From: Mesohalobacter salilacus
GTDB lineage: Bacteria > Bacteroidota > Bacteroidia > Flavobacteriales > Flavobacteriaceae
NCBI GenBank assembly: GCA_003931895.1
Contig: RRZV01000100.1
Coordinates: forward strand, 1-42,951
Length of the DNA: 42,951 nt
Direction: 5' to 3'
Shown here: positions 10,478 to 34,900 of the stretch, in pieces
Numbering within the stretch: the first letter of the stretch is position 1
Layout: every line of letters starts with the position of its first letter
The notes under the pieces: model-generated
Told to the model about the DNA's origin: nothing
Seen by the model: only the letters and a program-made list of their open reading frames with translations
Databases searched by the model: none
Program-made: the position numbers and the translations under genes

Positions 10478-11968
10478 TTATAGTATTATGGTTTGTAATG
10501 CTTGGGGGCTAATTGATATGGTTTTTGAAATATTTTGGTGTTCAAGTTCAAAGACTTTTTCTTCTTCAGTAGGATTAAATACGATAACAGCTATAGAACC
10601 ATCAGGATTTTGAGCCGCTGTAACTTGAAGCTTTTCATCAGTAGAATCAAATGCTATACGTTTTGCGCCTGGTCTTACATATTTACTAAAGTGTGCCATA
10701 GTGTAATAAAGCGGTGTGAAGTAAACTTCGTCTTGATTTTCATCGACAATTACTGGAGCAACGCACCAATTTTCAAACCAATTTGGTCCACCTTGACGGT
10801 TTAAAACCATATTCCAATCTATCCAACCATCAACACCGTTATTCAAACAACCGATGATATCACGAGCATATCTGTACACTGGTCTGTATTTAGGGTGTAA
10901 ATGTTTGTTATCTTCAGATGCCCATTCCCAACCCCAATCAGTGGCTTCTTTTTGCCAGTACCAATCATCATCTTTCCAAACCGGTATCTGAGCGTCTATA
11001 CAACCTTCTGTTTCTATTAAATACTTATCAGGCGCTTTATTTTTAGCATATTCTAATTGGTCTTCAAATATTTTGTAAGTGCTGGCATACCAGTGGATGG
11101 CCGTTCCATCAAAGTATTTTCTGGAAGTTTCATCCCGGTACATTTCATCTACCCATTCATCAAGATGCTCTCTATTTTGGTCATAACCTAAAATGACTAA
11201 ATCACTTTTACCATCTTTTTCTAATTGTGGTCCAAGGTGGTTGACTACAAAATCTGTCATTTCTTTAGGGGTGTAGTGCATACTTTCCCAATTGCTATCG
11301 TTTCCTAAAGGCTCATTTTCTACTGTAAAACCCCATATATCAATACCTTCTGCTTTGTAAGCATCAGCATATTTTGAAAAGAATAAGGCCCAAGTGTCAT
11401 AGTATTCTGGCAAAAGCTTGCCGCCAACCCAGTCTTTGTTATCTTTCATCCAAGGTGGAGCTGTCCAAGGTGAAGAAATGATTTTAAAACCATCTGTTGA
11501 AGCTTTCATAGCGTCTTTTATCATTGGAATAAGGTCTTCTTTATCTTCTTCAATGCTAAAATTTTCAAGTGTTTTATCGCCTTCCACAGGAGCATAAGAA
11601 TATTGACCTAATGAAAAATCACAAGAATTCATATGCGTTCTGGTTAAAGAATAATGCGCACCTGTTTCAGCAAAATAGGCGTCGATGATTTTTTGACGAT
11701 TTTCTGCACTCAATTGATTTAAAAGATAAGCTGATGCTTCAGTAAACGAACCTCCAAAACCAGAAATAGTTTGATAGGTTTTGCTTGTATCAACAACTAT
11801 TTTTGAAGTGGGTTTATCTTCTTTAAATTGTTTTATTTCAGTTAATTTGTTTCCACTTCTTGAGGTTTCAAAGACTTGAACAGAAAGTTGTTTTTCTTCT
11901 TTAGGTTTAGAACAGGAACTCATTACAATTGCAATAATTAGTAGTTTTAAAAGAATAAAATTTTTCAT
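10478..11968 (-). CDS. GH30 beta-1,6-glucanase-like lipoprotein
   Basis: A 496-residue GH30 enzyme with lipobox VMSSC (Cys19). The TIM barrel opens with ISGFGGSFTEASA and carries the acid/base in TVENEP (Glu219) and the nucleophile in LIETEGC (Glu321). A C-terminal beta-sandwich (about 430-496) ends the protein, as in the GH30_1-like architecture. Characterised flavobacterial GH30 proteins from laminarin loci (for example from Formosa) remove beta-1,6-linked glucose branches from laminarin, and the context fits that role. It sits 4 bp upstream of the MFS-GH17 gene and 24 bp downstream of the GH17 lipoprotein gene, so it is inside the long operon. Other GH30 activities (glucosylceramidase, xylanase) are unlikely in this setting. 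Confidence 0.92.
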   Translation of the reverse strand: MKNFILLKLLIIAIVMSSCSKPKEEKQLSVQVFETSRSGNKLTEIKQFKEDKPTSKIVVDTSKTYQTISGFGGSFTEASAYLLNQLSAENRQKIIDAYFAETGAHYSLTRTHMNSCDFSLGQYSYAPVEGDKTLENFSIEEDKEDLIPMIKDAMKASTDGFKIISSPWTAPPWMKDNKDWVGGKLLPEYYDTWALFFSKYADAYKAEGIDIWGFTVENEPLGNDSNWESMHYTPKEMTDFVVNHLGPQLEKDGKSDLVILGYDQNREHLDEWVDEMYRDETSRKYFDGTAIHWYASTYKIFEDQLEYAKNKAPDKYLIETEGCIDAQIPVWKDDDWYWQKEATDWGWEWASEDNKHLHPKYRPVYRYARDIIGCLNNGVDGWIDWNMVLNRQGGPNWFENWCVAPVIVDENQDEVYFTPLYYTMAHFSKYVRPGAKRIAFDSTDEKLQVTAAQNPDGSIAVIVFNPTEEEKVFELEHQNISKTISISPQALQTIIL

Positions 11969-11992: not shown

Positions 11993-13282
11993 TTAATGAT
12001 TTGGAGTAATTTCTTTTTTGACATCGGGCATACTCACATCGAGTAATAAATCTTCTCGATTACCTTCGTAGGTTTTCTTAATTGAGTTTTTGCCACGTTT
12101 TAAATCTTTAAATATTCCTTGGTCAAATTCGTCCCAAAGCACATATTTGGCTTTACCATCAACTGTAAAAAGTCCAAAATGATTTTCTGAATCTAATGGA
12201 TTATGTGCGGCTTTCCAGGGTTCGTCAAAAGCTTCAAAATAGAAACAAGCGACTTTATTTTTTCTTGACCAAGCTCTGATTTTATCGTAATACAAAGCCT
12301 GTTTATACTCATCAGTTGCTTTAGAACCTTTTTTACCATAAAGGTGATTTGATAAACTTGCCCAGCCTGTTTCACCAATATGTACGGGTTTATTTACGCC
12401 ATTACTTTTCATATAATTTACTACACTATCGTACTGAGAAACCGCATAACTCAAAGCTCTATTCATCACCCTGTCAAGAATTTCTAAGTTTTTTAATTGT
12501 TTTTCTTTAGGCAAAACTCCCCAAAACGTGGGATTGTAATGCGTATCGTGCATTGGATAGGTATGAATAGATAAATAATCTACACTTTTCAAAAGTTCTT
12601 TAAGTTCTGGTGTATGGTATTCAGGGCTTCCGCCGCCCCAAGACGCAAAATTATCTGAACTTGTAATCCATACATTTTTATCGAGTTGACCATCTTTTTT
12701 AAGATTTTGCAAATGCTTGACCCATTTTAAAATGATATGCGGCTCAACATAGTAAGCTGCAGCCCATTTGACCATGGCTTCGTTACCAACAGCAATCACT
12801 TTTACAATATCAGGATAAGTATTAGCCAATTCAACAGCGCGGTCTATTTCTTCTGCATTTTTTGGACTTCCTTCATTATGATTTAAAGGTAAATCCGTCC
12901 AAGCGTTTTTACAGTCTATCCACGCGCCAAGCATCACATACATTTCAAAGTCTGGGTTTTCAGATTTGAGCTCTTTGATGGCTTTTAAAATATTAGCGGC
13001 ATGTGGCAAACGTACATTGTAAGTTCTTAAAATTTTTATTCCTAAAGCATCCAAAATTTTAAGATCTTGTTTGAGTTGTGGAATTGTGGGTTGCTTATCT
13101 CGAGTGTCTTGACGATAACCGCCGTAAGAAATAGCGAGATAGTCAGGATTGTTTAAAATTTCTTTTGCGGTTAGATTCGTGTTCTTTTGCTTTTGCATAG
13201 GCGTTTTGTCTTCACTTTTATTTTTGCAGGATACGATAAGCATCAGGCAAATTAATAATGATATGTGAAGTTGAGTTTTCAT
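11993..13282 (-). CDS. GH17 beta-1,3-glucanase lipoprotein
   Basis: A 429-residue GH17 protein with lipobox LIVSC (Cys19). The TIM barrel starts near AISYGGYRQDTRD and carries the acid/base in AVGNEA (Glu168) and the nucleophile in IGETGWAS (Glu304), with YFEAFDEPWK after it. A roughly 60-residue C-terminal tail beyond the barrel is not recognised. It is clearly more diverged from the two cytosolic GH17 domains than they are from each other, so it is an older relative rather than part of that duplication. Membrane anchoring puts it in the periplasm or on the cell surface, acting on laminarin fragments before inner-membrane uptake. The phosphorylase gene upstream ends one base before this start, showing tight co-transcription. 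Confidence 0.9.
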   Translation of the reverse strand: MKTQLHISLLICLMLIVSCKNKSEDKTPMQKQKNTNLTAKEILNNPDYLAISYGGYRQDTRDKQPTIPQLKQDLKILDALGIKILRTYNVRLPHAANILKAIKELKSENPDFEMYVMLGAWIDCKNAWTDLPLNHNEGSPKNAEEIDRAVELANTYPDIVKVIAVGNEAMVKWAAAYYVEPHIILKWVKHLQNLKKDGQLDKNVWITSSDNFASWGGGSPEYHTPELKELLKSVDYLSIHTYPMHDTHYNPTFWGVLPKEKQLKNLEILDRVMNRALSYAVSQYDSVVNYMKSNGVNKPVHIGETGWASLSNHLYGKKGSKATDEYKQALYYDKIRAWSRKNKVACFYFEAFDEPWKAAHNPLDSENHFGLFTVDGKAKYVLWDEFDQGIFKDLKRGKNSIKKTYEGNREDLLLDVSMPDVKKEITPNH

Positions 13283-13283
13283 A

Positions 13284-16200
13284 TTATTTTAAAATAGATT
13301 CTTTGATTTCAACTTGTAAAAGCTTGACTTGATTTGTTCTTTTAAAAATAGCTTTACTGATATCTTTAGGTAATTCAAGACTATCAATTGATTTATCTGA
13401 ACCCTTATTAAATTCAACTTTTATATTGTTTTTATCAGACTTTTTATAAACCACTGGAATTTGACAAATGGTAAAGAAAAGTTGATCTGGTTTTAAATCA
13501 AGATGTTGTATATCTTTGTTAACATTGATATATTTTACTGCTTTATCTTCAGTTAAAAATTCATCTTTTCGTAATAAATGTGGTTTAAATTTGAGTACAC
13601 CATCTTCAAAATCAACGCCCAATTCACCAAATCGGCTGATAATATCTTCTTTGACTTGTCCCGTCATTCCTGGCTGTTGTGCGCCTTTGCCATAAGGTGT
13701 ATGAGAATAAGGATCGGTTGGGAAAGCGCCGTAAAGTTTTGGCGATTTGTGCACGCCAATGCCTTCATTGATTTCGTAATAATGTTCAAGTAAATGACCC
13801 AAAACTTCTGGAGATTCTCTATCAGCAATGGCTTTATTACAGCATTCTAAAACGGCTAACTGTAATTTAGATACCATATGCCAATATATAGAACCCAAAC
13901 CTTCATAGCCATAGAAAGTACCTGATCTACCTGTAAAAGCTTTATGATTAAACACTTCTTCAAATATTTCACAAATACGACTAAAATCTTTTGATGCTAA
14001 TTCAGCATATTCAGTCTCTGCTAAATCGTTTAAGGCTTTTTTTAGAAATTTAACATTGTTGAAATTTCCATTAAAATGATAGTTGCCTAAAACATCTTTT
14101 TGAATGATACCAACGTGCTTATCTTCAACTAATTTTTGAAGTAATTCAGATGATTTTACGGATGCTTCTGGAATGTGGTTGCGCTCTAAAAATCCCTTAA
14201 GGTTTTTATTTGGGTATAACAAGTAACTGTATTGGTCTTCTCTAAATAAAGCACTTTGTTTTAAAGCGTCTAAGACTTCAACAGCTTCTTTAGATTTAAG
14301 ATATTTAGAACTCAATACCGCCACTTGACCTTCCAACATTTCTTCTAAATAAGAAACCACTATTTTATCGTCATCAAAAGTTGCAAGATTATAGGCGTGG
14401 TAGAGATTGTCAGATCTTTTATTGGCTTTAATAGATTGCTCTAAATATTGAAGTGACAGATTTATGAAAGATTTAATTTCACTGGCTTTCAACTCTTGCT
14501 TTTGACCTGAAAATTGCTGCTCGTATATTTGACATCTAAATTTGCTGGCTGCTTGCCCTAATTGTTCAGTGATCACTTTTCGATCTTTATCAGAAAAAGA
14601 TTGCTTAGTTAATGCTTGATGACTTTTAAAGCTATCCTGAATTTGGTTAAATAAATTATGGAGTTCTTCAGAAATTTGAAAGTTTTGATTGGCATCTATA
14701 TTTTCAAACACATTTTCAAAAAACGCCATAAATCGTCTGAGATAATACAAAGTTACCATAGACACGCCGTTACCTACTAAAGCGTTGTTAGCATCATTCC
14801 ATTCTGGTCTTTGGGTGTTCATCCAAATACCAGCTTCTGGAATTAAATTTGAAAGTTTAGCCAAAGAAGTTGCCAGTATTTTTTCTATAAAATTGACGTG
14901 AACTATATCTTGATTTTGGTTTTGGAGTAAAGCACCGTCTGCACCAATTTTATCTCTATGCTGTCTTACAAACTTATCAGCATTGTGGTCAAAATCAATA
15001 GTATCTTTTGGGTCGCTAACAATATCCTTATAAGGTTTGATTTTGTATGGCACATTGGCATAAACGAATGCATTTTCACTGAGTAAGGACTTTAGCCTAT
15101 CAGGATTATAATCGTTTAAAAACTCTAAGAATTTTTGTAAATAAATAATTTGATGATCGCCCCAATATCCAATATAAGACCAAGGGTCGTCTGGTTCTAT
15201 AACTTCCCAATCAAATCCGTCTTTAGTTAAGCGATAAGGATTATAGCCATCAAAAGTTGAGGCGTTTAAAAATTTAAAAATCATCCCTTCGATGAAGGCT
15301 GGATAAGAATAGGCAAGACTTTCCCAGTTTTGAAAAATATCACGCCAGTTGCCTTCATAATCTAAAACTTTATTACCATCTTCATCTTTTAGGTTGATTG
15401 AAAATTGGTTCCAAGGTCTACTGGGGTCACCGTGTCTTCGGCTAAATTTTAAGGGTAAATATTCTGTACAAAGCCTTGTTAAGTCGGGATTGTTTTCTTT
15501 TTTAACTAGCGCTTTAAGCTCTTCAAGGCTAAACTCATTCCCTAAGCTATCAATTTTAGGTAAATAGGTTTTAGCAATATGAACATTAGCGGCTTTGATA
15601 TATTTTTTAAAGTCTTTAGCATCAATGGTATAATTGTTGTCAAAAATACCGCCACGCATAATATTAAACATCGTGTTGGAATAATGTCTAATATCTCTCA
15701 ATTCATCACTTGAATACTGAAGTCCATCAGCGGCTGCACTGAGCTTAATTAAGTTTTGTGTGCCCGTATCAATGTCTTCTTGAAGTTTTGTATCTAAGCT
15801 TTTGTCATTTTTAATTTTGTGAATAAGCTCAACCACTGCAGATTGATTATAATTGACATCTGCAATAATTGACCATTCTAATGTAGATTCAGGTTGAGAA
15901 ACAAAACTTTGATGGACAAAATAAGCGCCTTTCTCAGCTTTGACATCATTTTCCTGTTCAATTGATTTGTTGTTTCTAAACTTTTCTAATTGTAAAGAAG
16001 ACAGAAGGTATTTTGGATGTTGTGTATTCAAACTCCAAACCACGTTAGCTTTTAAAGCTTCGCTTGGCTCTGCTTTATCAACAGGGACAGCACTTAAAGC
16101 AAAGACACCAACACCTGAAGTTTCTTCAAGTTCGCTACGCTTATAGGCATCAACGAGGTTGCTACTTTGGGTTTGTAAAGCTGTTTCTACTTTTGCAGGC

Positions 16201-16727
16201 AAAATATTTTGTATCCCGTCGATACATTCTATTTCATATTGAATTTCACCAAAGTTCTTCAATTGAGAATTTTTGATAAACCCAAAATGATCTGATGTAC
16301 TCCATTGATAAGAGAAACTTAAACCTAAGGTTACATTGACCTCTTCAAAAACAACTTTATGCCCGTAAATACTTTTGTAGATATTTCTGGACGTTTCATA
16401 CAAATCGTTAAAGCGTTTAGAAAAAGGTTCCCAAAAGTGGATTTTACCTTTATCATAAATTTTCAATACGGTTTTACTTCCTGTAATATCTGCAAATTCT
16501 GTGATTTTATCATCAGTGTAATAAGGAAACAGAGAATACTCAGAATTTTTTCTACCCGCTGTGAGTCCGCCATTGCTTGATATAAACATCCAGTGGTTGG
16601 ATGGACTTATAATACTCATAAAAAAAGGACGTAATTCACTACTGTTAGAAATTTTCAAAAATTTCTCTTCGTTAATATTTACAATATCAAGTTGTTTTTG
16701 GGCTTTATCAACTGAGTTTGTAGGCAT
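13284..16727 (-). CDS. Cytosolic GH149-like beta-1,3-glucan phosphorylase (probable)
   Basis: An 1147-residue protein with no signal peptide, lipobox or membrane helix, so cytosolic. The N-terminal part contains SNGGLTAGRKNSEYSLFPYY and later HFWEPF, and the central helical part contains RRHGDPSRPWNQF, EGNWRDIFQNWE and PWSYIGYWGDHQ. These resemble the beta-sandwich plus (alpha/alpha)6 layout of the GH94/GH149/GH161 inverting phosphorylases. Length (GH149 members are about 1100 aa) and the beta-1,3-glucan locus favour GH149, which splits beta-1,3-oligoglucans with phosphate into glucose 1-phosphate. EGNWRDIFQNWE sits where a catalytic Asp motif would be expected by analogy with GH94, but the residue is not assigned here. 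The family call rests on recall of motifs, length and context, not a search. It could be an uncharacterised relative with another beta-glucan specificity. Confidence 0.7.
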   Translation of the reverse strand: MPTNSVDKAQKQLDIVNINEEKFLKISNSSELRPFFMSIISPSNHWMFISSNGGLTAGRKNSEYSLFPYYTDDKITEFADITGSKTVLKIYDKGKIHFWEPFSKRFNDLYETSRNIYKSIYGHKVVFEEVNVTLGLSFSYQWSTSDHFGFIKNSQLKNFGEIQYEIECIDGIQNILPAKVETALQTQSSNLVDAYKRSELEETSGVGVFALSAVPVDKAEPSEALKANVVWSLNTQHPKYLLSSLQLEKFRNNKSIEQENDVKAEKGAYFVHQSFVSQPESTLEWSIIADVNYNQSAVVELIHKIKNDKSLDTKLQEDIDTGTQNLIKLSAAADGLQYSSDELRDIRHYSNTMFNIMRGGIFDNNYTIDAKDFKKYIKAANVHIAKTYLPKIDSLGNEFSLEELKALVKKENNPDLTRLCTEYLPLKFSRRHGDPSRPWNQFSINLKDEDGNKVLDYEGNWRDIFQNWESLAYSYPAFIEGMIFKFLNASTFDGYNPYRLTKDGFDWEVIEPDDPWSYIGYWGDHQIIYLQKFLEFLNDYNPDRLKSLLSENAFVYANVPYKIKPYKDIVSDPKDTIDFDHNADKFVRQHRDKIGADGALLQNQNQDIVHVNFIEKILATSLAKLSNLIPEAGIWMNTQRPEWNDANNALVGNGVSMVTLYYLRRFMAFFENVFENIDANQNFQISEELHNLFNQIQDSFKSHQALTKQSFSDKDRKVITEQLGQAASKFRCQIYEQQFSGQKQELKASEIKSFINLSLQYLEQSIKANKRSDNLYHAYNLATFDDDKIVVSYLEEMLEGQVAVLSSKYLKSKEAVEVLDALKQSALFREDQYSYLLYPNKNLKGFLERNHIPEASVKSSELLQKLVEDKHVGIIQKDVLGNYHFNGNFNNVKFLKKALNDLAETEYAELASKDFSRICEIFEEVFNHKAFTGRSGTFYGYEGLGSIYWHMVSKLQLAVLECCNKAIADRESPEVLGHLLEHYYEINEGIGVHKSPKLYGAFPTDPYSHTPYGKGAQQPGMTGQVKEDIISRFGELGVDFEDGVLKFKPHLLRKDEFLTEDKAVKYINVNKDIQHLDLKPDQLFFTICQIPVVYKKSDKNNIKVEFNKGSDKSIDSLELPKDISKAIFKRTNQVKLLQVEIKESILK

Positions 16728-17569: not shown

Positions 17570-18415
17570 TTATTCATAAACTCTAACGTAATCAACTATC
17601 ATACTTTGAGGAAAAATAGTTTCTGCATTTGGATTACCAGGTAAATTGCCACCTACGGCTATATTAAGTATAATGTAAAACGGTCTATCATTAAATACCC
17701 AAACCCCTTCGCCATTGGTTTCTTCTTCAATATCTTTTGGCGTTAAAGACTGGTATAATTTATCATCGATATAGTAGTTGATTCGGTTTGGTGACCATTC
17801 AATACCGTAAATATGGAACTCAGTATCAACTCTGCTATTTTGAAGAGTAAACTCTTTAGAAACTGATGCAGCACCAGAAAAGCCTGGGCCGTGAGCGGTG
17901 CCGAAAATGGTAGTCGGTTCGTCACCAACATTTTCCATAATATCTATTTCTCCGACTTGGGGCCAAATAGCTCCATCACTATCATCACCAAGCAACCAAA
18001 ACGCTGGCCAATAGCCTTTTCCAGAAGGTAATTTTATTCGGGCTTCAAAACGACCAAATTGTTTTTCAAAGAGGCCTTTGGTTTTTAGCCTTGCAGAAGT
18101 AAAATTGCTGCCTTCAATCGACTCTTGTCTGGCTGTGATGACAAGAACACCATTTTCAACTTTGACGTTTTCTGGTCTATCGGTGTAGTATTGAAGTTCA
18201 TTATTACCCCAACCTGGAATACCTTCAGCTGAGCCGTCACCAATGTCGAAAGTCCAATTTTGAGGATTTGGCGCACCATCTTGGTCAAATTCGTCTGACC
18301 AAACGAGATTGTTTTTAGTCACCACTTCTTGAGTTTCGTCTTCACTACAACTCGAAAAACAAATTGAGAGTAAAAGAAAAATTGGTATATATTTCATTTT
18401 AAAAGTTTTTTTCAT
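17570..18415 (-). CDS. GH16 laminarinase (endo-beta-1,3-glucanase), lipoprotein
   Basis: A 281-residue single-domain GH16 enzyme with lipobox FSSC (Cys23). The catalytic signature ExDxxE is complete in VGEIDIMENVG (nucleophile Glu156, Asp158, acid/base Glu161). Family landmarks around it include WSDEFDQDG, GWGNNELQYYTDRPEN, GRFEARIKLPSGKGYWPAFWLL, FGTAHGPGFSG and FYIILNIAVGGNLPG. The IDIME form with an extra Met between the catalytic residues is typical of GH16 laminarinases (subfamily 3). It would cut the beta-1,3 backbone of laminarin at the surface or in the periplasm. The neighbours on both sides are non-catalytic binding lipoproteins at 14 and 17 bp, so enzyme and binding modules are made as separate polypeptides from one operon. 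Confidence 0.95.
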   Translation of the reverse strand: MKKTFKMKYIPIFLLLSICFSSCSEDETQEVVTKNNLVWSDEFDQDGAPNPQNWTFDIGDGSAEGIPGWGNNELQYYTDRPENVKVENGVLVITARQESIEGSNFTSARLKTKGLFEKQFGRFEARIKLPSGKGYWPAFWLLGDDSDGAIWPQVGEIDIMENVGDEPTTIFGTAHGPGFSGAASVSKEFTLQNSRVDTEFHIYGIEWSPNRINYYIDDKLYQSLTPKDIEEETNGEGVWVFNDRPFYIILNIAVGGNLPGNPNAETIFPQSMIVDYVRVYE

Positions 18416-18432
18416 AATTAATAATTTAAAAC

Positions 18433-19893
18433 TTACTCCACATAGAAGTAAATGTTATCTAAAAATACATTAGAAATGGTAGGGTTATTAGGTCCTGCTT
18501 CTGAATTAAACAACAATAAACCTATCCGGTTTCTGTCCGACAAGCCAGAAAAATCTGAGAGTGGGATATCAAAACTCACCCATTCATCTTCGAGCAACTG
18601 GTCTCCTGTAATTAAGAAAGAGCCTACGGTTTCAGATGCTCCAAAATTTGTTAATTCCATTAGAAACCTATCGTTAGCTTCAAGAGGTTCTTGGATATTA
18701 ATATCAATGTGTAAATGCGTTAAATTAGTAGCATCAACTGGTTGAACTGCTTCTGCTGGAAATGTTACATCATTAAAAACAATCCCAACAAAATTTAATT
18801 GCGTGTAACTGATTATATTTTCTGGTCCAACCGGAACAATACCACCAAGAGTAGTTTGAAATGGCTCAAAAAACGAGTTATATCTTGAAACTGGAATATC
18901 TTGATAAGCATCGCTAAAAATAGAGACCACATCTTCAGCTGGTCTTGTTGGAGTTGGTGCAAAATTAAAACCACCTTCTACAGTTAAGTTCAAAGAGCCT
19001 TCTGCGGCTATATTGCGTAAACTAGCTGTTATTGAAGCATCACCAGTACTCGCAACTGACACTAAACCTGTTTCATCTACCGATGCGACTTGCGGGTTTG
19101 TTGATTGAAAATCAAAATACGCTGGTGCGGCTTGTACTGTGACGTTTTCTCCTGAAGCTAAGTTTGCTGTCAAGTTTAACCCGGTAAGTTCAATAGGGAC
19201 ATCAATAAATCCTTGTTGCACTACGTCTTCTCCGTTTAATATTGCAGGCCTCAATTGCCCAATAGTGCTTAAATTTTCAAATTTAATTTCATCAAGCCAA
19301 AATGTCCAAGCGACTTCATTGCCGTTAGGCTCATCATCAACAATATCAAAACCTCCAGCTGTAAAGAAAAACATACCTCTTTCCTGAACAAGTTTAGAAG
19401 GGTTTGGAATTGGAACGACGTACTTCTTCCAGTCGGTTGTCAATTCTAGACCTTGTCTTACAACAGGAAATTTATCTTCTAAAAAATCATTACCAAAACC
19501 AACGTTACTTAAAGTTCCATTTACAGAACCTTTAGCCCAAAACGTGAGGGCGTCAAAACCTGTTAAGTCTCTGCCTTCTCCTCTATCTCTAAAAATTCCT
19601 CCAACAAAATTACCGTCTGGATTATTTGGTCCAGGCACAGCAATTTTAATAGACGAAGAACCAAGAAAGGACTCGTTATCATCTGTTCCAAAAGCTTCAG
19701 GGTTTGCACCTTCCAAGGGATCTATTGATATGAAAAACTCATCTGTTAATCCCACAGGGTTGTCCGTGTAAACTTCAGCAGTATTAGGAAAAGAAGCTAA
19801 AACTGCATCATCTGAAATATCACGCTCGCATCCTGAAAAGATTGCCAGGCATAAAAGTAAAAGCGTATAGGTTTTAAAATTTAATTTGATCAT
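18433..19893 (-). CDS. Multi-domain glycan-binding lipoprotein (beta-sandwich, Big_2, beta-sandwich)
   Basis: A 486-residue lipoprotein (lipobox FSGC, Cys22) without a catalytic motif. The N-terminal jelly-roll (about 40-215) shows GFDALTFWAKGS and VAWTFWLDEIKFEN, typical of galactose-binding-like carbohydrate modules. A bacterial Ig-like (Big_2-type) domain follows (about 235-315, FQSTNPQVASVDETGLVSV). The C-terminal sandwich (about 320-486) opens PTRPAEDVVSIFSDAYQDI and ends VFLDNIYFYVE, matching the second sandwich of the T9SS protein at 5601-6965 and resembling the ExoP-type C-terminal module known from beta-glucan enzymes. The role inferred is a surface glycan-binding protein for laminarin. 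It lies 6 bp after the GH-A/barrel gene and 17 bp before GH16. Confidence 0.78.
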   Translation of the reverse strand: MIKLNFKTYTLLLLCLAIFSGCERDISDDAVLASFPNTAEVYTDNPVGLTDEFFISIDPLEGANPEAFGTDDNESFLGSSSIKIAVPGPNNPDGNFVGGIFRDRGEGRDLTGFDALTFWAKGSVNGTLSNVGFGNDFLEDKFPVVRQGLELTTDWKKYVVPIPNPSKLVQERGMFFFTAGGFDIVDDEPNGNEVAWTFWLDEIKFENLSTIGQLRPAILNGEDVVQQGFIDVPIELTGLNLTANLASGENVTVQAAPAYFDFQSTNPQVASVDETGLVSVASTGDASITASLRNIAAEGSLNLTVEGGFNFAPTPTRPAEDVVSIFSDAYQDIPVSRYNSFFEPFQTTLGGIVPVGPENIISYTQLNFVGIVFNDVTFPAEAVQPVDATNLTHLHIDINIQEPLEANDRFLMELTNFGASETVGSFLITGDQLLEDEWVSFDIPLSDFSGLSDRNRIGLLLFNSEAGPNNPTISNVFLDNIYFYVE

Positions 19894-19899
19894 TATCTT

Positions 19900-22800
19900 T
19901 TATTTTCCGATATTAATATGAATATATGTTCTGATTTCCCACTCCGTACCATCTGGAAAGCCAGCAGCACTTAAAATGGGGTCACCATTAAAAGTCCCTA
20001 CAGGCGTTTGATTGGGTAAATATCTTGGTGAATTTTCGTCTAATGAACGCCAAGTTCCGCGTATACCGATGCGTGTATTTGGTAAAACAAACCAATCAGG
20101 TTTACTCAACGAATACGATACATCTAACATTAATTGAACAGGATAAGTTAAGTTAAAATCTCTGTGGTAGTCAAATGGTCCCCAATCGTCAATTTTGACG
20201 TGACCTTGGACTTTCCAGTTTTTATAAAGAGCTCTTAAATCTGCACCATAACGATAAATATTTCTCTCGTCATCACCATTAGCTTGACCCTTACCGTAGT
20301 AAAAGTTTCCTATTAAACCTAATTCTGGACTAATTTTAGACACCATTCTGGTATGGGCTTCCCATAAATCTTCTTCAGGAACAGTATTTCCAAAAGCAAA
20401 AAACGTACGATCAGCTAAAAACCCTACGTGACCATCAGTTGTAGATTTATTGTCGTGATAAACAAAACCTGCACTCATGGCAAAACTGGCATCTTCTGCC
20501 CTGTCGTTATTCCACTCATACATATAAGTACCTGGTGTTGGGTCGAAAGTGATCAAAATTTCACCAGCAGTTTTTTCTCTATTGCTTCGTACAGCAAAGG
20601 GATCATCAATGATATTTCGTATTCTCCCTGGAGCTGCAACATCGTTTGGCATTGGATCAACTAAAGGTTGTTGCCATAAGAAGTTTGGTGCTATTTGCCA
20701 TTTTCCAATATTATAGGTAAAGCCAGTTAGCACATTTGATAAGTTACCTGTACCAACGTCTTTAAGTTTCCAACCAGTTAGGGTCATGGTTTGATCGTAT
20801 CCACCTCCAGCAACAAGACCTGAAACACCACCTTGGGCATACCATTGAAACTTTCCGCCTTGATAAGTAAGTTTACCTTTCCAACCCCAATTGTCATCAG
20901 AATCTATTTTATCAATAACGACTTGACCATCGTCTGTAATATCTTGGTAAGAACTATCATTAAGTGGGCTACCACCCCAAATTCCTCCTAAAGTCAAACC
21001 AAATCTTCCGAAATCCCTTTCAAAAACAAGTGTTGCTCGTTCTGTCGGCCATGGTGGAATAACACCACTACGAACTTGATTTTGGTCTAAAACACGACGA
21101 CCGTTTTCGTCAAACTCTAAATCCGTTTCAACATCTCTATGGTAAATACCTGTTACTGTCCAATGTTTAATTTCTGTTCTATATTTAAAAAGCATCGTTG
21201 GATTAGCACCCCACCAGAGTTGTGGACCAAACGCTGCTTTAAAGCCGTCTGCTACACCTTTACCATCTAATTCAAAACCAAGGATTTCACCATTATAAAT
21301 ATCTAAATTGGGTCCGTAGTTAGCTTCAGGATAAAGGCCGAAGAAATCACCTTCGTAGCCCCAATGGTAATGGCCTGTTCTATAGAAGCCTCTTAAATCA
21401 AAATGTTCAGCATTCCATTCATATTCGGCTTGATAAACAGTTACTCGCTCATTATCTTCTAAAACAACTTCTCCATCTGGAGTATCTACCGTTATAGGTC
21501 TGGCTCTATTTTCATAAAATATTTCGTCAATTGGATTTGTAGCGACATTCCCAACAATGTTAAAATCAACTTTGGCACGCATATTCGGAGAAGGCCTTCC
21601 TTCCACACCAATATAATAAGACTGCATATGATCAAAACCTTGCTGATCAGGAAATGTGTTAGCATCTGGGTCTGCATTTTCTGGTGTCGTGAGAAGGCTA
21701 CCACCTGTATTGAAAGTAGTAAATTCTGCTCTTAATGTACTTATGCTAATTTTATTTGAACCACCACCGCCTAATGCAGCTTTATCACCGCGAGCACGCA
21801 AAACGGCGTCCATTATGGAGATGTTATTAAAGTAATTATTAACAAAGTCTAAATTAGTGCCTTCAGCAAATGGATCTAATTTATGTGCTTCTTTTAAAGC
21901 ATAGTAAGCTGCTCTGGGATATAATTCATATAATCCTCTTGAATTAGAAAAGCCTTTAGCGCAAATACCAAACCACTCTTCGTTCATATTGTTTTTGCCC
22001 TCTACGTGGTCAATTTCGTAACCTCCATTAGACCAAGATGCATTATTGTCGTGAACATCTAAATTGGTGGTTTGTCCAAATTTCCACCAACCATCACTAA
22101 ATTGAAATGTATAACCACCTAATGAGTTTTCTGCCTTACCAAGGCCAGCTGCATTTTGATAAATTTCTTTCCAGTTTTCAACCATATAATGCGCTTGCAT
22201 TTTTTGATCTTCTTGATTGTCTTTTGCATTAAAAGCATCTGATCCAAATTCTGTAAATAAGATGGGTTTTCCATATTCTTTTTTGACACGTTCAAAAGCA
22301 TCTCCAAAAGAAGCACCTCTATACATATTGGTTCCGTAAATATCTACATCAGGACATTCTTCAGCAATAATATCTAAAAACAGTAAATCACCATTACAAA
22401 TTGCAACTGGTACGTCATTGTTTATAGACTTTATTTTGAGGGCTGCGTCATTCATTAACTTATACATAGGTCGTCCTCGGCTTTCTCCAACTGCTCGGCG
22501 TTGGTCTTCTTCATCAGGAAAATCCTCTGTTTCCGCTCCAGCCCAAAACAATCCATAATTATTTTCATTACCTAATAAATAGAGTAATAAACCTGGCGTG
22601 TTTTTATATGTCTGTGCTAAATCAGTTACCTCAGACATTAATAATTCTTTAGTTGCAGGATCATCGTATTTTGTTACAGGAGTCCATACGCCATCAATGG
22701 TTAATCCATAACGCCCAAAAGAATGATTTAACATGGTGTAAATACCGTAATTCTCATAGATATATGTGATCCACTTGGGTTGAATACCGGTGTAGATTCT

Positions 22801-23067
22801 TACAGTATTCACACCCATATTTTTTAGCAAGCTCATCTCGTTATCAAGCGCTGCTTTAATGATGTCATCAGGCTGTTCCCAAAGGCTATAATTAAAATTT
22901 TTACCAATTGGCATATGAGCCCAATTCATTCCATTAGCAATAAACTTCTCACCATTAACAAGTAAATACTGACCACTGGCGTCGTCTATAACTTTAACTT
23001 GATTTGTTTGAGCAAAAGTTGCATAGCAACATAAAATGTAAACTAAAACTAAATATATGCTTTTCAT
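19900..23067 (-). CDS. GH-A TIM-barrel glycosidase fused to a beta-barrel-like C-terminal domain
   Basis: A 1055-residue exported protein (signal peptide ends about ATFAQ, residue 20; no lipobox). Residues about 24-405 form a clan GH-A TIM barrel: NGMNWAHMP, MGVNTVRIYTG, acid/base in LLYLLGNENN (Glu168), IYGTNMYRG, and nucleophile in ILFTEFGSDAF (Glu273). It looks closest to the GH2 C-terminal/GH5-like group, but no defined family can be assigned. Residues about 420-1055 contain many short alternating strands rich in aromatic residues separated by charged turns, ending EIRTYIHINIGK, as in porin-like outer-membrane barrels. One polypeptide thus seems to carry a glycosidase and an outer-membrane barrel, with no break in frame. 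It is the first gene of the long laminarin operon. Specificity for beta-1,3- or beta-1,6-glucan is inferred from context. Confidence 0.75.
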   Translation of the reverse strand: MKSIYLVLVYILCCYATFAQTNQVKVIDDASGQYLLVNGEKFIANGMNWAHMPIGKNFNYSLWEQPDDIIKAALDNEMSLLKNMGVNTVRIYTGIQPKWITYIYENYGIYTMLNHSFGRYGLTIDGVWTPVTKYDDPATKELLMSEVTDLAQTYKNTPGLLLYLLGNENNYGLFWAGAETEDFPDEEDQRRAVGESRGRPMYKLMNDAALKIKSINNDVPVAICNGDLLFLDIIAEECPDVDIYGTNMYRGASFGDAFERVKKEYGKPILFTEFGSDAFNAKDNQEDQKMQAHYMVENWKEIYQNAAGLGKAENSLGGYTFQFSDGWWKFGQTTNLDVHDNNASWSNGGYEIDHVEGKNNMNEEWFGICAKGFSNSRGLYELYPRAAYYALKEAHKLDPFAEGTNLDFVNNYFNNISIMDAVLRARGDKAALGGGGSNKISISTLRAEFTTFNTGGSLLTTPENADPDANTFPDQQGFDHMQSYYIGVEGRPSPNMRAKVDFNIVGNVATNPIDEIFYENRARPITVDTPDGEVVLEDNERVTVYQAEYEWNAEHFDLRGFYRTGHYHWGYEGDFFGLYPEANYGPNLDIYNGEILGFELDGKGVADGFKAAFGPQLWWGANPTMLFKYRTEIKHWTVTGIYHRDVETDLEFDENGRRVLDQNQVRSGVIPPWPTERATLVFERDFGRFGLTLGGIWGGSPLNDSSYQDITDDGQVVIDKIDSDDNWGWKGKLTYQGGKFQWYAQGGVSGLVAGGGYDQTMTLTGWKLKDVGTGNLSNVLTGFTYNIGKWQIAPNFLWQQPLVDPMPNDVAAPGRIRNIIDDPFAVRSNREKTAGEILITFDPTPGTYMYEWNNDRAEDASFAMSAGFVYHDNKSTTDGHVGFLADRTFFAFGNTVPEEDLWEAHTRMVSKISPELGLIGNFYYGKGQANGDDERNIYRYGADLRALYKNWKVQGHVKIDDWGPFDYHRDFNLTYPVQLMLDVSYSLSKPDWFVLPNTRIGIRGTWRSLDENSPRYLPNQTPVGTFNGDPILSAAGFPDGTEWEIRTYIHINIGK

Positions 23068-23297
23068 AAGGATGAAATTAATATGTTGTTAACAAACTTA
23101 AACGTTTTCGTAAATTAAATGTAGTAAACTACCTTTACAAAAAACATACATCTTAAAATTTTAACATTTAAATCTGTTGTATAGCTAATGATACCACTTA
23201 AATACTATCTAAACGCTTAAATAATAATAAAATATAGAAAGCATTCTTTACTCAGTGTAAAGTTGATGTAAAGTTATTTAAATGTAATGTAAAGAAG
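23068..23297 (-). promoter_or_regulatory. Promoter/operator region of the laminarinase operon
   Basis: This 230-bp gap separates the regulator's stop codon from the first operon gene. A -7 element reads TAAGTTTG on the minus strand (23100-23093), 25 bp before the ATG, and overlaps the 10-bp palindrome TTGTTAACAA (23086-23095). CTTAAAATTTTAAC lies at 23152-23165. At the far end three direct copies of TGTAAAG start at 23256, 23267 and 23288 (11 and 21 bp apart, about one and two helical turns), and CTTTAC (23246-23251) makes an inverted repeat with the first. An inverted single copy CTTTACA is at 23133-23139. These are plausible binding sites for the regulator encoded next door; the sequence is AT-rich, so chance is not excluded. 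Confidence 0.5.
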
Positions 23298-30454: not shown

Positions 30455-31945
30455 TTAGTATCCTAGGTTTTGTTCCCAATTGCCTTGAGAGAATTGAATT
30501 TCTTCCAAAGGTATTGGAAATACATTATTTTTAGGGGCTTCAAAGCCATCTATGAATTGTGATGCTCTATCAGTCCTGACTAAATCAAAAAAGCGATGAC
30601 CTTCACCCATCAATTCGAGTCGTCTGTCGTTGTAAATATTATTGAGCAAATCAGCACCTGAAGAATTTACAGGCTGTAAGCCGGCACGTTGTCTCACTTG
30701 ATTGAGATACTGACGTGCTAAATCGTCATTAATACCACCTCTATTATAAGCTTCTGCAGCCATCAATAAAACATCGGCATATCTAATGGCACGATAGTTA
30801 TTAGGATGCGTCAAATTAGCATCTGGTAAATTATCGTTTTCTCTAGGAAGGTATTTTTTATTGTAGAATCCTGTGTGTCCTGTAACTGGATCTTGGTTTC
30901 CAATAGTAAATGTTGCGCCAGTATCAGCTGCCCAAGCTTCTATGTCTAAAATTGATAATTCTTTTCTGAGATCATTATCTGCAAAAGCATCAACAGTTTC
31001 TTGTGTTGGTAAATTAAAGCCAAAACCAGATTCATAGACTGGACCATTATAACCTCTTACTCCGCTAAATCCAACTGCTACGTTACCTTCAGAACACTGT
31101 AAACATTCAAATCCTGCACCTTGGTCTCCTGAATATTGAACTTCAAATACAGATTCTGGTCCGTTTTCAGCTGAAAACTCAAAAAGATTTAAAAAGTCTT
31201 CGCCTGCTTGTGTTCCAAATAAGTGAAACTGTCCAGAGTCGATAACCACTTGAAGTTGTTGAGCACTTAGATCAAATTTATCTTGATATAAAAAGACTTT
31301 ACCAAGTAAAGCTTGTGCAGCTGCTTTTGAAGCTCGACCTACTTGTGGAGCTTGAGGAGCTAAATCGGCGATAGCCAATTGTAAGTCATCTTCAATAAAT
31401 GCATAAACCTCTTCAACAGGCGATCTTGGAATGCTAAGCTCTTCACCTAATTGAAATTGTCCTTCAGGCTTAATTGGAATTGGACCAAACCATTTGACTA
31501 ATTCAAAATTAAAATAGGCTCTTAAAAATCTGGCCTCTGCAATGATTTGGGCTTTACCGTCAAAATCAATATTGTCTTGGTTTTCTATAATAAAAGCCGC
31601 CCGTTGCACGCCCGCAAAGTTAAAATCCCATACATCATCAATATTGTCGTTAATTGGAGTATGTTCCATTCTATCTACTTGTTGCCAACCTACAACGTCT
31701 GTTGCACTCTCGCCACCGGCATGGGTATTGTCAGAAGCAATTTCACCTAAAATCACATTAACATAAGTTGCTTGTGTTAAATCATAAGCCCCTATCAGTG
31801 CATTATTGAAGTCTGTTTCAGACTGAAAGAAACTTCCAGAGGTAACCTGAAAAGGTGGCTCTTCTTGAACAAAATCATCACTACAAGAAACTAGTAAAGT
31901 TGTTATAAAAAGTGATAAATAAATTTTATATGTTTTCATTTTCAT
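30455..31945 (-). CDS. susD: SusD/RagB-family glycan-binding lipoprotein
   Basis: A 496-residue lipoprotein (lipobox LVSC, Cys21) that forms the lid of the SusC transporter at the cell surface. Family features include the N-terminal FVQEEPPFQVTSGSFFQSETDFNNALIGAYD, the TPR-like helical core (AQIIAEARFLRAYFNFELVKWFGPIP, then ASKAAAQALLGKVFLY), and the C-terminal RYADVLLMAAEAYN and RRLELMGEGHRFFDLVRTDR. Length is ordinary for the family. It lies 9 bp downstream of susC. Laminarin as ligand is inferred from the linked GH16, GH17 and GH30 enzymes. Confidence 0.95.
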   Translation of the reverse strand: MKMKTYKIYLSLFITTLLVSCSDDFVQEEPPFQVTSGSFFQSETDFNNALIGAYDLTQATYVNVILGEIASDNTHAGGESATDVVGWQQVDRMEHTPINDNIDDVWDFNFAGVQRAAFIIENQDNIDFDGKAQIIAEARFLRAYFNFELVKWFGPIPIKPEGQFQLGEELSIPRSPVEEVYAFIEDDLQLAIADLAPQAPQVGRASKAAAQALLGKVFLYQDKFDLSAQQLQVVIDSGQFHLFGTQAGEDFLNLFEFSAENGPESVFEVQYSGDQGAGFECLQCSEGNVAVGFSGVRGYNGPVYESGFGFNLPTQETVDAFADNDLRKELSILDIEAWAADTGATFTIGNQDPVTGHTGFYNKKYLPRENDNLPDANLTHPNNYRAIRYADVLLMAAEAYNRGGINDDLARQYLNQVRQRAGLQPVNSSGADLLNNIYNDRRLELMGEGHRFFDLVRTDRASQFIDGFEAPKNNVFPIPLEEIQFSQGNWEQNLGY

Positions 31946-31954
31946 GATATTAAA

Positions 31955-34900
31955 TTAAAATTTGACATTAAGTCCTAAAGTATAAGTTCTTGGTACGGGA
32001 TAAAAGCCAAGGTCAATTCCACCACCTATAGGAGCACCTGTAGAGGCCGTAGGATCAAACCCAGAATATTCTGTAAAAGTAAAAGCATTATCAACTTTAG
32101 CATATAGTTTTAGAGAGCTTGCCCCGATAGATTTCAATATACTTTCTGGGAAGAAGTATCCTACAGAAATGGTCTGAATTCTTAAGAAATCTCCGTCTTC
32201 AACAAAATAGTCTGAAAAAATTCTATTCGTATTAGCACCAGCAGTAACTCTTGGCTCAGTATTACTTGTACCTGGCCCTGTCCATCGATCAAGTCGTTTT
32301 CTGAGGACATTGACGTTTGGTTGATCTCTTTCAAAGTTTCTGACAATTTCTTGACCTAAATTAGCAAATGAATAAGCGCTAAAGTCAAAGTTTTTGTATC
32401 TAAATGAAAGATTAAAACCCATAGTGATATCAGGTATTGGATCGCCAATATTGGTTCTATCGTCTTCATTTATAACACCATCGTTATTTGTATCTACAAA
32501 TCTTAAATCACCAGGCTGCGCTTCAGCACCAAGAGAACCTTGCGAAGGGTGCGCATCAACCTCAGCCTGTGTCTGGAAAATACCATCGGTTTGAAGTCCA
32601 TAGAAGAACCCAATAGGCTCACCCTCTTGCATTCTTGATGGTGGCAACTGTCCTACACTAAAAGCACCTCCTTCTATAAACTCGGTGCCATTAACTTCAG
32701 TAACTTCGTTATCTATAGTACTTATATTATAACCAACATTAAAAGAAAAATTTTTAGACACTTCTTTGCTATAATTAAGCGCCACTTCAACACCTTTATT
32801 TTCAACTGTCCCTGCATTTATTGTTGGCGCAGAGCTACCCGGAGCTGAAGTTCCAAAGATTCCAGATACAGGAATGTTTGTGATTAACAAGTCTTCTCTT
32901 TCGTTTGAAAAATAATCAATTGTTACATCTAAATCAGAGTTAAAAAATCTAAGATCTAAACCAACATCTAACTTTTTAGAAGTTTCCCACTTAATATTAG
33001 GGTTTGATAATGGCCCTAAAGCTTGTCCATTAGTTAAGTTTTGATCTTGACCCAAAACAGCCTCAGCTTCACCACTCAAAAGAGAGAGGAAGAGAAAATC
33101 AGGGATTCTATCATTTCCCAGTTCACCGTAACTTGCTCTTAACTTGGCAAAGTTAAACCAGTCACCTGTATCAAAAAATTCTTCTTCTGATATAATCCAA
33201 CCTGTAGTTACAGATGGAAACCAAGCAGTTTGATTATTAGGCCCAAACCTTGAGGAAGTATCTCTTCTTAAAATACCAGATAACAAATAACGGTCTTTAT
33301 AAGCATATTCAACACGGCCAAAATAAGAAAGACGCCTAGCTTCAGAAACAAAAGAACCATTAGTTTGATCGTCGCCTGCTCCTGTAGCCGTTCCCAAATC
33401 TGCAAAATCAAAGCTATTATTTGGCACACCTGTTCGACTTCCAAATAAACCTTCGCCATGTGTTCTAAAGACTGTCATACCAAGCGTTAAGGTTACATCG
33501 TGTTCATCAGCAATAGTTTTGTCAATGGTATGAAATAAATCAAACGTATAATCGTAAAAGTCTTGCTGGTTTAAATTGACTTGATTTTCATCTCGTGTGA
33601 ATACTTTAGAAGTCCCAAAATTAAACTCTGGAAAAAATTCTCTATTGTTTAATTTTGAGGAGTTAAATCCGTATCTAGCAGTCAACTTAAAATCATCTAT
33701 ATATTCTAGCTCAGCTTGAAAAGAGCCGCTTAAGCGATTACTTTCAAAATCATTAAATGTATTGGCGAGTTGAGTAAGTGGGTTAACTACCTCGTTACCT
33801 AAATCTATAGTACCATCTAGATTATCTCTGTCACGACTAATCGTAGGAGCCATGTTGATAGCATTAAATAGTACAGAACCTAAGCCAAAAGAATTTATTC
33901 CTTTTGAACGGTTATTGGTGTGAAAAACATTAGCCTTTAAGTTTAAAAAATCTCTAACGTCTGTATTAATAGATAATTTAACAGTAGTTCTTTTAAAGCT
34001 AGACTTATCTGCCCCAACAATACCTTCTTGATCTAAATGGGAAGCGCTCATGGAGTAGTCTGTATTTTCAGAACCTCCAGCAACTGATATGTTATGACTA
34101 ATTATTTCAGCCGTTTCGAATACTTCATCCTGCCAATCGGTATCATTTTCAATAGCTGATATATTAGAAAAGGGCTGATTTAAACCTGCATTAGCATAGC
34201 TTTCATTTAATAACAAAGCATATTCATTAGAATTCAGTAAAGGTAGCTCCCGTGAGGTTTCTTGAAGACCTACATATGTATTATAAGTTACTACAGCTTT
34301 TTGATTTCTTTCACCCGATTTAGTTTCTATTAAAACGACTCCATTTGCTCCAACCGACCCATAAATAGCAGCTTGAGCGTCTTTTAAAACCGTAATAGAT
34401 TCAATATCTTGTGGGTTTAAGGAGTTGAGACCACCGTCGTATTGAAAACCATCAACTATAATTAAAGGCGCACTATTACCATTTGTTGATATACCTCTAA
34501 TTCTAATATTTGACTCAGCTCCTGGAGCACCAGAATTTGGTGTTACATTAACACCAGCTGTTGTACCTTGCAAAGCTGACGCTGCATTTAAAGGGTCTAA
34601 GTCTTGTATCGACTCCGAGTCAATTGTACTAACAGACCCTGTTAGTTTACGCTTACTAGAAGAACCATAACCAATTACGACAACTTCTTCAAGAGCTTCT
34701 GCAGAAACTTTAAGCTGAACGTCTATGGTTTGTTGACCAGTAAATTTAACTTCTTGGGTCTCAAAACTGACATAAGAAAAAACAATAATATCATTAAGTG
34801 ATACATTATTGAGTGTAAACTCACCATCAAAATTAGTTACTGTACCTTGTGTAGTACCTTTAATGCTAATATTAACGCCAGGAATAGGTAAATTGGCGTC

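Follow-up and report, generated by a model that had tools for sequence, protein, structure and literature searches.

A glycosidase joined to an outer-membrane-type beta-barrel in a laminarin locus of Mesohalobacter salilacus, and its possible role as an enzyme-coupled channel

Laminarin is a major marine storage glucan, and its uptake across the outer membrane of Bacteroidota is attributed to SusCD. The window examined here, a stretch of 42,951 nucleotides from Mesohalobacter salilacus (assembly GCA_003931895.1, contig RRZV01000100.1, positions 1 to 42,951), is by its gene content a laminarin polysaccharide utilization locus (PUL) with its own SusCD. It includes an intact open reading frame (ORF) with an ATG start (19900-23067, minus strand; 1055 aa) that joins a glycosidase to what looks like an outer-membrane barrel, and the question is what such a protein might do. 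An initial annotation, made from the sequence alone, had proposed this architecture and a SusC-independent route in which the enzyme feeds its products into its own pore. We consider it almost certain that the protein is a glycosidase TIM barrel followed by a barrel of outer-membrane type, the closure of the barrel being predicted. On balance, and with modest confidence, we also think that it is a plugless channel of the outer membrane in which an enzyme is coupled to the passage of beta-1,3-glucan (laminarin) oligosaccharides.

Two domains in one protein

Relatives were collected from pattern hits (99 stretches, 90 relatives, 80 kept), a sample in which close relatives are over-represented. 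Of the 80 loci (L numbers below; genomes have G numbers), 49 have the fused form and 31 a stand-alone TIM domain. The alignments of the fused proteins and of their barrels have 38 rows (the window and 37 of the 49 fused loci, near-duplicates and partial genes having been left out) and that of the TIM domains has 33 (the window and 32 of the 80 loci). When 199 genomes of the same family were sampled, 64 gave a match at E 0.001 or better. Single ORFs matched over approximately 990 or more of the 1055 residues were found in 39 of the 199, M. salilacus included, the remaining matches being stand-alone TIMs, fragments and weaker relatives. Hence, the fusion is not an annotation slip.

Pfam, invariant glutamates, an AlphaFold2 model and Foldseek agree on a clan GH-A glycosidase (GH, glycoside hydrolase) joined to an outer-membrane-type barrel, as originally suggested. 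Glyco_hydro_2_C (PF02836) matches residues 73-290 (E 1e-5, 25.3 bits against a cut-off of 21). E168, in a GNE motif, and E273, in TEFG, are invariant in the 38 aligned fused proteins, that of the window included, and in the 33 TIM domains, fused and stand-alone, and in the model N167-E168 and E273 are found where strands E160-165 and E269-274 finish. Clan GH-A enzymes have their two glutamates after strands 4 and 7 of the TIM barrel. Features of the clan are present here (the TIM barrel, the NE acid/base motif and matches to GH2, GH158 and GH157), and by membership of that clan E168 would be the acid/base and E273 the nucleophile. Many further positions are invariant in both domains of the fused proteins, and a WWK...NNMNEEW stretch (residues 327-365) is invariant in all 38.

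The observation that the catalytic domain falls clearly into no family also held, since the generic GH2 TIM-barrel model is the one Pfam model whose cut-off it reaches, and it reaches that of no NCBIfam model (for the beta-galactosidase models, scores of 15-21 compare with cut-offs exceeding 1200). The Pfam GH2 profile matches 31 of the 33 TIM-domain members; four also match GH72, and the resemblance to these glucanosyltransferases is weak and sub-threshold. In GH2 enzymes, jelly-roll and Ig-like domains precede the TIM barrel. Membership of GH2 was rejected, PF02836 alone passing and no other GH2 domain appearing in the Pfam and NCBIfam scans. A single-sequence search of the PDB with the window protein found only weak matches to GH2 beta-galactosidases and, with phmmer, no GH158 match at E 10, against E 1.8e-11 for the GH158 enzyme BuGH158 (6pal) when the profile of the 33 TIM domains was used. 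With the profile, GH158 ranked first (9oro, GH158(Pro), at E 3.6e-8) and GH2 enzymes followed from E 1.6e-5; GH157 was absent among the 60 PDB matches listed. Foldseek with the full model returned LaGH157 (9g5g, E 1.2e-13) and GH158 (E 1.8e-13), in alignments of 12-14 % identity.

Judged by these comparisons, the enzyme appears to represent a group within clan GH-A that lies close to GH158 and GH157 and at family-level distance from both. The three share the TIM barrel and the NE motif, and GH158 (by profile and fold) and GH157 (by fold) are the closest solved structures, but the similarity is found only at profile level and the WWK...NNMNEEW stretch is invariant in the fused proteins. From the gene context, the substrate is likely to be beta-1,3-glucan. 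The accessible text of PMC7157763 describes BuGH158 as a laminarinase whose TIM barrel packs against a C-terminal Ig-like domain, whereas the fused protein has linker helices and a large barrel there instead.

No Pfam or NCBIfam model passes its cut-off in the C-terminal 650 residues. AlphaFold2 models of the full protein (pLDDT 81, pTM 0.56) and of the barrel alone (pLDDT 79.7, pTM 0.79), both built on the 38-sequence alignment, contain the same 24 antiparallel strands of seven or more residues, the first at residue 440 and the last reaching the C-terminal residues. Shorter strands of 3-5 residues, of which the full model has eight and the barrel-only model six, were counted as loop parts or hairpins. 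The modelled domain is neither a set of beta-sandwiches nor a propeller, and in this the initial annotation was borne out. All 50 PDB matches listed by Foldseek for the barrel-only model are outer-membrane barrels (best E 1.9e-9), including TonB-dependent receptors, LptD, the Mtr complex, OprD-type and general porins, and chitoporins 7vu2 and 5mdo; 8agd, 4q35 and 6r2q, on which the titles alone are silent, we take to be such barrels. With the full model, the barrel half matched BtuB, PfeA, FepA, OccAB3 and a Vibrio porin, separately from the enzyme half. On the evidence of the models, the large C-terminal domain is very probably an outer-membrane barrel.

Its strands have the alternation expected of that fold. 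Measured on the alignment with the Moon-Fleming scale, the odd/even difference in hydrophobicity over the 24 strands was 1.78, against 0.87 ± 0.13 in within-strand shuffles, none of 2000 being as high, and 1.11 for the 15 shorter strands of the TIM domain. The less hydrophobic phase, presumed to face the lumen, is the more conserved in 18 of the 24 strands (Wilcoxon p 0.004), which suggests a working interior. The 12 odd-to-even connections have 7-36 residues each and the even-to-odd ones 2, 3, 6, 2, 2, 2, 2, 20, 2, 2 and 12, eight of these 11 having 2-3 residues. Cysteine is absent from the barrel of the window protein, and 34 of the 38 aligned barrels have none. Many outer-membrane proteins end in Phe, the C-terminal aromatic of the beta-signal, as do 15 of 18 aligned relatives from outside Bacteroidota and Balneolota (e.g. 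YFTYQF).

Two familiar identities do not match the modelled barrel. TonB-dependent receptors have a 22-strand barrel; here, 24 long strands are modelled and neither PF07715 (Plug) nor PF00593 matches the window protein, while the SusC of the window matches both in the same scan. Type V translocators have 12 or 16 strands and a surface passenger, and the 24 long strands and the lack of any autotransporter match in Pfam for the window protein speak against placing it in that class.

Lipoproteins encoded next door and pairwise fusions

The initial annotation overlooked the neighbouring lipoprotein gene, and also the laminarin context that points to the substrate. In all 27 fused Bacteroidota and Balneolota loci that have a next gene in the locus, this gene is of one Big_2-containing family, and in all 27 a cysteine following G, A, S, N, T or C ends the N-terminal hydrophobic stretch (a strict lipobox in nine). 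Immediately behind this cysteine, the members share a conserved run of charged residues (mostly CER and then residues rich in D/E), perhaps a surface-export signal. A Big_2 gene never follows the 31 stand-alone TIM genes, where the next gene is a phosphorylase (19), an MFS/GH17-like gene (five; MFS, major facilitator superfamily) or a gene on the opposite strand (three), or there is none in the locus (four). A search of the PDB (E up to 1) with the Big_2 lipoprotein found no match.

Outside Bacteroidota and Balneolota, a different lipoprotein family, here called the partner, comes next in 17 of 18 fused loci, on the same strand and within 80 bp or overlapping (L059, L062, L064, L066, L067, L068, L070, L071, L072, L074, L075, L076, L080, L085, L086, L101 and L110). 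The 18 are drawn from 20 non-Bacteroidota fused loci, L083 and L105 having no next gene. The partner in L059 matches those of all 16 other loci, among the matches listed. An alignment of 16 of the 17 (L068, with an extended frame, was left out, and some were started inside the longest ORF) has an invariant lipobox cysteine and a conserved region around GENQ. These proteins, mostly of 183-263 aa (e.g. L066:13046-13783), look like tetratricopeptide repeat proteins by eye only; the three members tested have no Pfam match and the family profile has none in the PDB (E up to 10). In several Woeseiaceae-type loci (L066:13755-15584, L067, L071, L072, L075 and L080) a second, distant TIM-family protein of approximately 600-650 aa, 21-29 % identical to the TIM domain, follows the partner gene. 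In the class to which G580 belongs (Gammaproteobacteria by record name), G580 being a centre genome chosen for having the system, 274 genomes were searched with up to ten candidates per genome scored; four have the barrel and the same four have the partner, adjacent to it.

The partner profile also matches five of 149 genomes from the phylum of G585 (a record labelled Brevinema, Spirochaetota), two of them, G874 and G983, only at E 6e-4 to 9e-4. The fusions that follow, in L160, L158 and L159, are in proteins from spirochaete MAGs (metagenome-assembled genomes). In a 776 aa protein (L160:6720-9047) the partner domain (residues 84-182, whole-genome E 6.3e-26) is followed by a related barrel (whole-genome E 2.9e-11) and there is no TIM domain. 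Two others have the partner domain ahead of a TIM domain: L158:8312-10315 (668 aa; whole-genome E 4.0e-7 for the partner, E 6.8e-64 for the TIM) and L159:6200-8239 on the minus strand (680 aa; 3.6e-5 and 9.1e-61), the TIM E-values being scaled to a few dozen proteins. In L161, the usual TIM-barrel gene (1111 aa) adjoins a partner gene. TIM-barrel, partner-barrel and partner-TIM chains therefore all exist, as is typical of proteins with a joint function. In L158 the neighbouring genes encode a two-component system and a resistance-nodulation-division pump, so the substrate there need not be laminarin. Several separate TIM-family genes, perhaps for other glycans, lie downstream of the partner-barrel gene in L160.

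Which side the enzyme faces and what the barrel does

Outer-membrane barrels end at the periplasmic side, as for substrates of the beta-barrel assembly machinery. With 24 strands and the C-terminal end on that side, the N-terminus and the enzyme would be periplasmic too, which is likely if strand 1 is a membrane strand as modelled. The restriction of short turns to one side of the barrel agrees with this. A strict lipobox was found in three of the 31 stand-alone TIM homologues, also consistent with a periplasmic location; five more (L079, L084, L088, L093 and L109) have a cysteine, by eye, outside the strict pattern, and a few starts are misplaced or missing, among them those of L090, L097 and L099. 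Of the 31, 26 are of 472 aa or less. The partner-TIM and partner-barrel chains imply that all three modules would share one side. The enzyme would then act after passage, and the proposal that it feeds its products into its own pore does not fit this topology, which hangs on strand 1.

We favour a channel because it would account at once for the fusion, for the conservation seen on the lumen side, for the lipoprotein and for the catabolic gene neighbourhood. The 24-strand barrel would admit oligosaccharides through the outer membrane without a TonB plug, and the GH158/GH157-like glucanase tethered at its periplasmic mouth would cut or rearrange the emerging chains. Cleavage would keep the inside concentration of the entering species low and so make uptake effectively one-way, the short products passing to an MFS-GH17 fusion and a GH149 phosphorylase encoded in the same cluster. 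The lipoprotein encoded next door may be part of the complex, of the Big_2 type in Bacteroidota and Balneolota and of the family of approximately 200-260 aa elsewhere. More tentatively, and with more doubt than belief, we suggest that the protein exemplifies a new class of outer-membrane glycan importer with representatives in five phyla. Such an importer would combine a plugless channel of 24 strands with a lipoprotein and with a glycosidase on the periplasmic side, and uptake would be one-way because the substrate is cleaved at the inner mouth and not because TonB supplies energy. There would be a spirochaete partner-barrel version for other glycans, and the laminarin protein would be one member of a larger undescribed system.

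Several findings weigh against the channel or the topology behind it. The strand number of 24 is a count reached after short strands were set aside, strand 1, though in both models, has the weakest alternation of all (0.09), and without it the odd number would turn the enzyme outwards. The pTM of the full model leaves the position of the enzyme relative to the barrel loose. TM-scores of the barrel model in Foldseek are low (TMq up to 0.35), the GH157 and GH158 matches of the full model have a root-mean-square deviation of 17-25 Å and alignments extending past the TIM domain, and the alternation test used strand boundaries taken from a model that rests on that very alignment. A C-terminal Phe occurs in none of the 20 aligned Bacteroidota and Balneolota proteins, including that of the window, and a search of the window's genome with the partner profile found nothing. 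The lumen could be closed off by the highly conserved loops. Many lineages can do without the barrel, having stand-alone TIM genes in otherwise similar PULs, and the window PUL already has SusCD, so that a second pore is not strictly needed. TonB-dependent receptors are encoded 8-9 kb downstream of the fused gene in L067 and L085. Finally, Woeseiaceae laminarin loci, seven with a single SusC, are described in the accessible text of PMC12175321, which tells against full SusC independence there; the GH158 that it names among the families may be the present fused protein.

The SusC-independent route of the initial annotation therefore survives only in part. For the window PUL, with its own SusC and SusD, it can be a parallel route at most. 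Elsewhere it is plausible: six non-Bacteroidota loci extend for approximately 10 kb to either side of the fused gene, and apart from L067 and L085, the two with a receptor gene downstream, these loci (L062, L066, L068 and L101) have no TonB-dependent receptor among the genes examined there (19 unlabelled large ORFs and ten further neighbours of L066, L068 and L101 were scanned with Pfam, not every neighbouring gene). The Plug family occurs twice in the genome of L062, among the matches listed, and is absent among those listed for the genome of L110, though such MAGs may be incomplete.

The main rival, which we think unlikely, is that the barrel is an anchor only, holding a glucanase beside SusC/SusD on the inner side of the outer membrane, with its lumen blocked by loops. 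The presence of SusCD in the window PUL suits this, as do the stand-alone TIM proteins that manage without a barrel and the well conserved loops at residues 563-595, 617-623, 801-831 and 963-973, which could fill the lumen; loop 563-595 is predicted on the extracellular side and is perhaps folded into the lumen. However, a lipid anchor would have the same effect far more cheaply, the lumen side is better conserved than the lipid side in 18 of 24 strands, as if the interior were functional, and the fusion is also present in L062, L066, L068 and L101, the loci with full flanks and no TonB-dependent receptor among the genes examined.

It is less probable still that the enzyme faces the medium, on a barrel serving as exporter or surface anchor as in type V secretion. 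The order of N-terminal passenger, helix (406-435) and C-terminal barrel is that of classical autotransporters, and strand 1 is weak enough that an odd strand number, and an inverted topology, can be entertained. Against this stand the 24 long strands, where type V systems have 12 or 16, the parity of turns and loops, the lack of a strict lipobox in 28 of the 31 stand-alone homologues (a few with a misplaced or missing start), and the spirochaete proteins, in one of which the partner domain precedes the barrel and in two the TIM domain. An export device that passes glucan outwards, as PgaA, BcsC, AlgKE and PelB do, with the TIM domain trimming it like PgaB or PelA, is very improbable because the loci are catabolic (GH149, GH16, GH17, GH30, GH3, SusCD, a Y_Y_Y/LuxR-type regulator and MFS transporters, and no glycosyltransferase named among the neighbours scanned with Pfam, which were not all of them), even though exopolysaccharide secretion shares the modules (periplasmic helical domain or lipoprotein, outer-membrane barrel, TIM-type hydrolase) and the weak, sub-threshold resemblance is to a glucanosyltransferase family; in those biosynthetic loci, moreover, the hydrolase is not itself joined to the barrel.

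As a channel, the fused protein would resemble known systems in part. Like TonB-dependent receptors and SusC, it has a large outer-membrane barrel, a glycan locus and an adjacent lipoprotein gene, and BtuB-, PfeA- and FepA-type barrels are its best barrel fold matches, but it has an enzyme in the place of the plug and 24 modelled strands, not 22. With LamB, OprB and chitoporin it would share a plugless barrel with a proposed substrate specificity, and 7vu2 and 5mdo are among the fold matches, though those porins have 16 or 18 strands and the fused protein is larger and has a catalytic domain. The MFS-GH17 fusion of the same cluster likewise has transporter and glucanase in one chain, but in the inner membrane, with an unrelated transporter and another enzyme family.

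The laminarin locus and its relatives

Features of the fused gene and its locus are listed in Table 1. The order of the locus is SusC, SusD, a PKD/CBM4 protein, a 306 aa protein without a Pfam family, peptidase T, a regulator, a 230 bp gap, the fused gene, the Big_2 lipoprotein, GH16, a PKD protein, the 1147 aa phosphorylase, GH17, GH30, MFS-GH17, a further GH17, a CBM4 protein with a type IX secretion tail, and GH3. The regulator has Reg_prop and Y_Y_Y domains and a sub-threshold LuxR-type helix-turn-helix. From the fused gene to the GH17 gene at 7061, the intergenic gaps are 6, 17, 14, 57, 1, 24, 4 and 8 bp, followed by gaps of 95 and 153 bp; since the downstream gaps are short and the upstream gap is 230 bp, the fused gene probably heads an operon. 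The -7-like element in that gap was called by what we take to be the Bacteroidota -7 consensus, and 6hq6, the best match of the phosphorylase, we take to be a bacterial GH149 beta-1,3-oligosaccharide phosphorylase. The peptidase T gene (26100-27335) lies between the PUL regulator and glycan-binding genes, and the MFS-GH17 gene encodes an inner-membrane counterpart of the fused protein, a transporter-enzyme fusion in the same cluster.

Table 1. Features of the fused gene and of the surrounding laminarin locus
Feature	Position	Strand	Basis
TIM-barrel glycosidase + outer-membrane beta-barrel (predicted)	19900..23067	-	One ORF, 1055 aa; Pfam, alignment, model
Putative signal peptide, residues 1-20 (MKSIYLVLVYILCCYATFAQ)	23008..23067	-	By eye, hydrophobic; N-termini of relatives compared
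Clan GH-A TIM barrel, residues 22-400	21868..23004	-	Pfam, profile search, Foldseek
Putative acid/base E168, GNE motif, invariant	22564..22566	-	Alignments; role from clan GH-A
Putative nucleophile E273, TEFG motif, invariant	22249..22251	-	Alignments; role from clan GH-A
Helical linker, residues 406-435	21763..21852	-	Model
Outer-membrane-type beta-barrel, residues 440-1055	19903..21750	-	Model, strand alternation, Foldseek
Conserved long barrel loop, residues 563-595, mean entropy 0.97 bits	21283..21381	-	Alignment, model
Loop LWWGANP, residues 617-623, best conserved barrel connection, mean entropy 0.37 bits	21199..21219	-	Alignment
-7-like element TAAGTTTG, in the 230 bp gap upstream of the fused gene	23093..23100	-	Consensus match only
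Big_2-containing lipoprotein, lipobox FSGC by eye, 6 bp downstream	18433..19893	-	Pfam
GH16	17570..18415	-	Pfam
GH149-type beta-1,3-oligoglucan phosphorylase, 1526 bits to 6hq6	13284..16727	-	PDB sequence match
GH17	11993..13282	-	Pfam
GH30	10478..11968	-	Pfam
MFS transporter fused to GH17	7987..10473	-	Pfam
SusD (30455-31945) and SusC (31955-34987), same PUL	30455..34987	-	Pfam, NCBIfam

A GH149-like gene lies within the flanks of at least 35 of the 49 fused and 26 of the 31 stand-alone loci, counts that are lower bounds as incomplete contigs were included and genes were labelled by their best BLAST match to window proteins, which misses divergent homologues. Relatives span five phyla, many known from MAGs alone. 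Named records include Psychroflexus, Mesohalobacter, Polaribacter, Flavobacterium filum, Allomuricauda, Lewinellaceae, Balneolaceae, Mariprofundus, Woeseiaceae, Ectothiorhodospiraceae, Leucothrix, Cloacimonadota and the one labelled Brevinema. Every fused form from outside Bacteroidota in this set comes from a MAG record, so that binning errors may affect single cases.

On a tree of 81 TIM domains built by a quick method, the state changes between fused and stand-alone at least 11 times, at least five of these being forced by well-supported branches, and the barrel has therefore been lost, gained or exchanged repeatedly. The stand-alone TIM gene L065:2781-4130 shares 96 % DNA identity over the TIM region with the fused gene of L045; the block with barrel, Big_2 gene and GH16 (as in L047 and L042) is missing and the phosphorylase comes next, though this is a MAG and an assembly fault is possible. 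In L143, approximately 78 barrel residues are left behind the TIM domain, and tails resembling linker 406-435, by eye, close many stand-alone TIM proteins. Frame breaks interrupt the copies in L142 and L144, which like L143 come from the phylum of the window. Identities in the TIM domain and in the barrel rise and fall together (r 0.94 over 703 pairs, which are non-independent). A search for the barrel in 395 genomes of the window's phylum gave 36 match rows in 35 genomes, 33 of them in ORFs of at least 1028 aa; two short matches (G423 and G311) sit behind a TIM domain, and no split, stand-alone barrel was seen in these genomes, a 99 aa fragment in G393 not having been examined.

Among the results listed, full-text searches gave no paper on a fusion of a glycosidase with an outer-membrane barrel, in a coverage that mostly lacks subscription papers and preprints. 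The accessible text of PMC13188888 places a 'GH2 beta-glycosidase' upstream with GH16 and GH149 in Muricauda laminarin loci, which is probably the present gene, and that of PMC11345257 names GH2 in similar loci. The fused gene has thus probably been annotated as an ordinary GH2. As far as their available portions go, PMC5827456 gives GH149 gene clusters, PMC6246565 discusses a fusion of a transporter with a carbohydrate-active enzyme that involves GH17, and PMC4827864 states that outer-membrane pore proteins are rarely joined to other domains.

The fused gene belongs to the same laminarin loci in many flavobacteria, and its TIM domain adds what appears to be a distinct catalytic group near GH158 and GH157. 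The finding yields a testable three-part complex of enzyme, barrel and lipoprotein. If the channel reading is true, passage coupled to cleavage would offer a different means of import from the TonB-driven one and, as the MFS-GH17 fusion is present too, these bacteria would have one enzyme-bearing transporter in each membrane.

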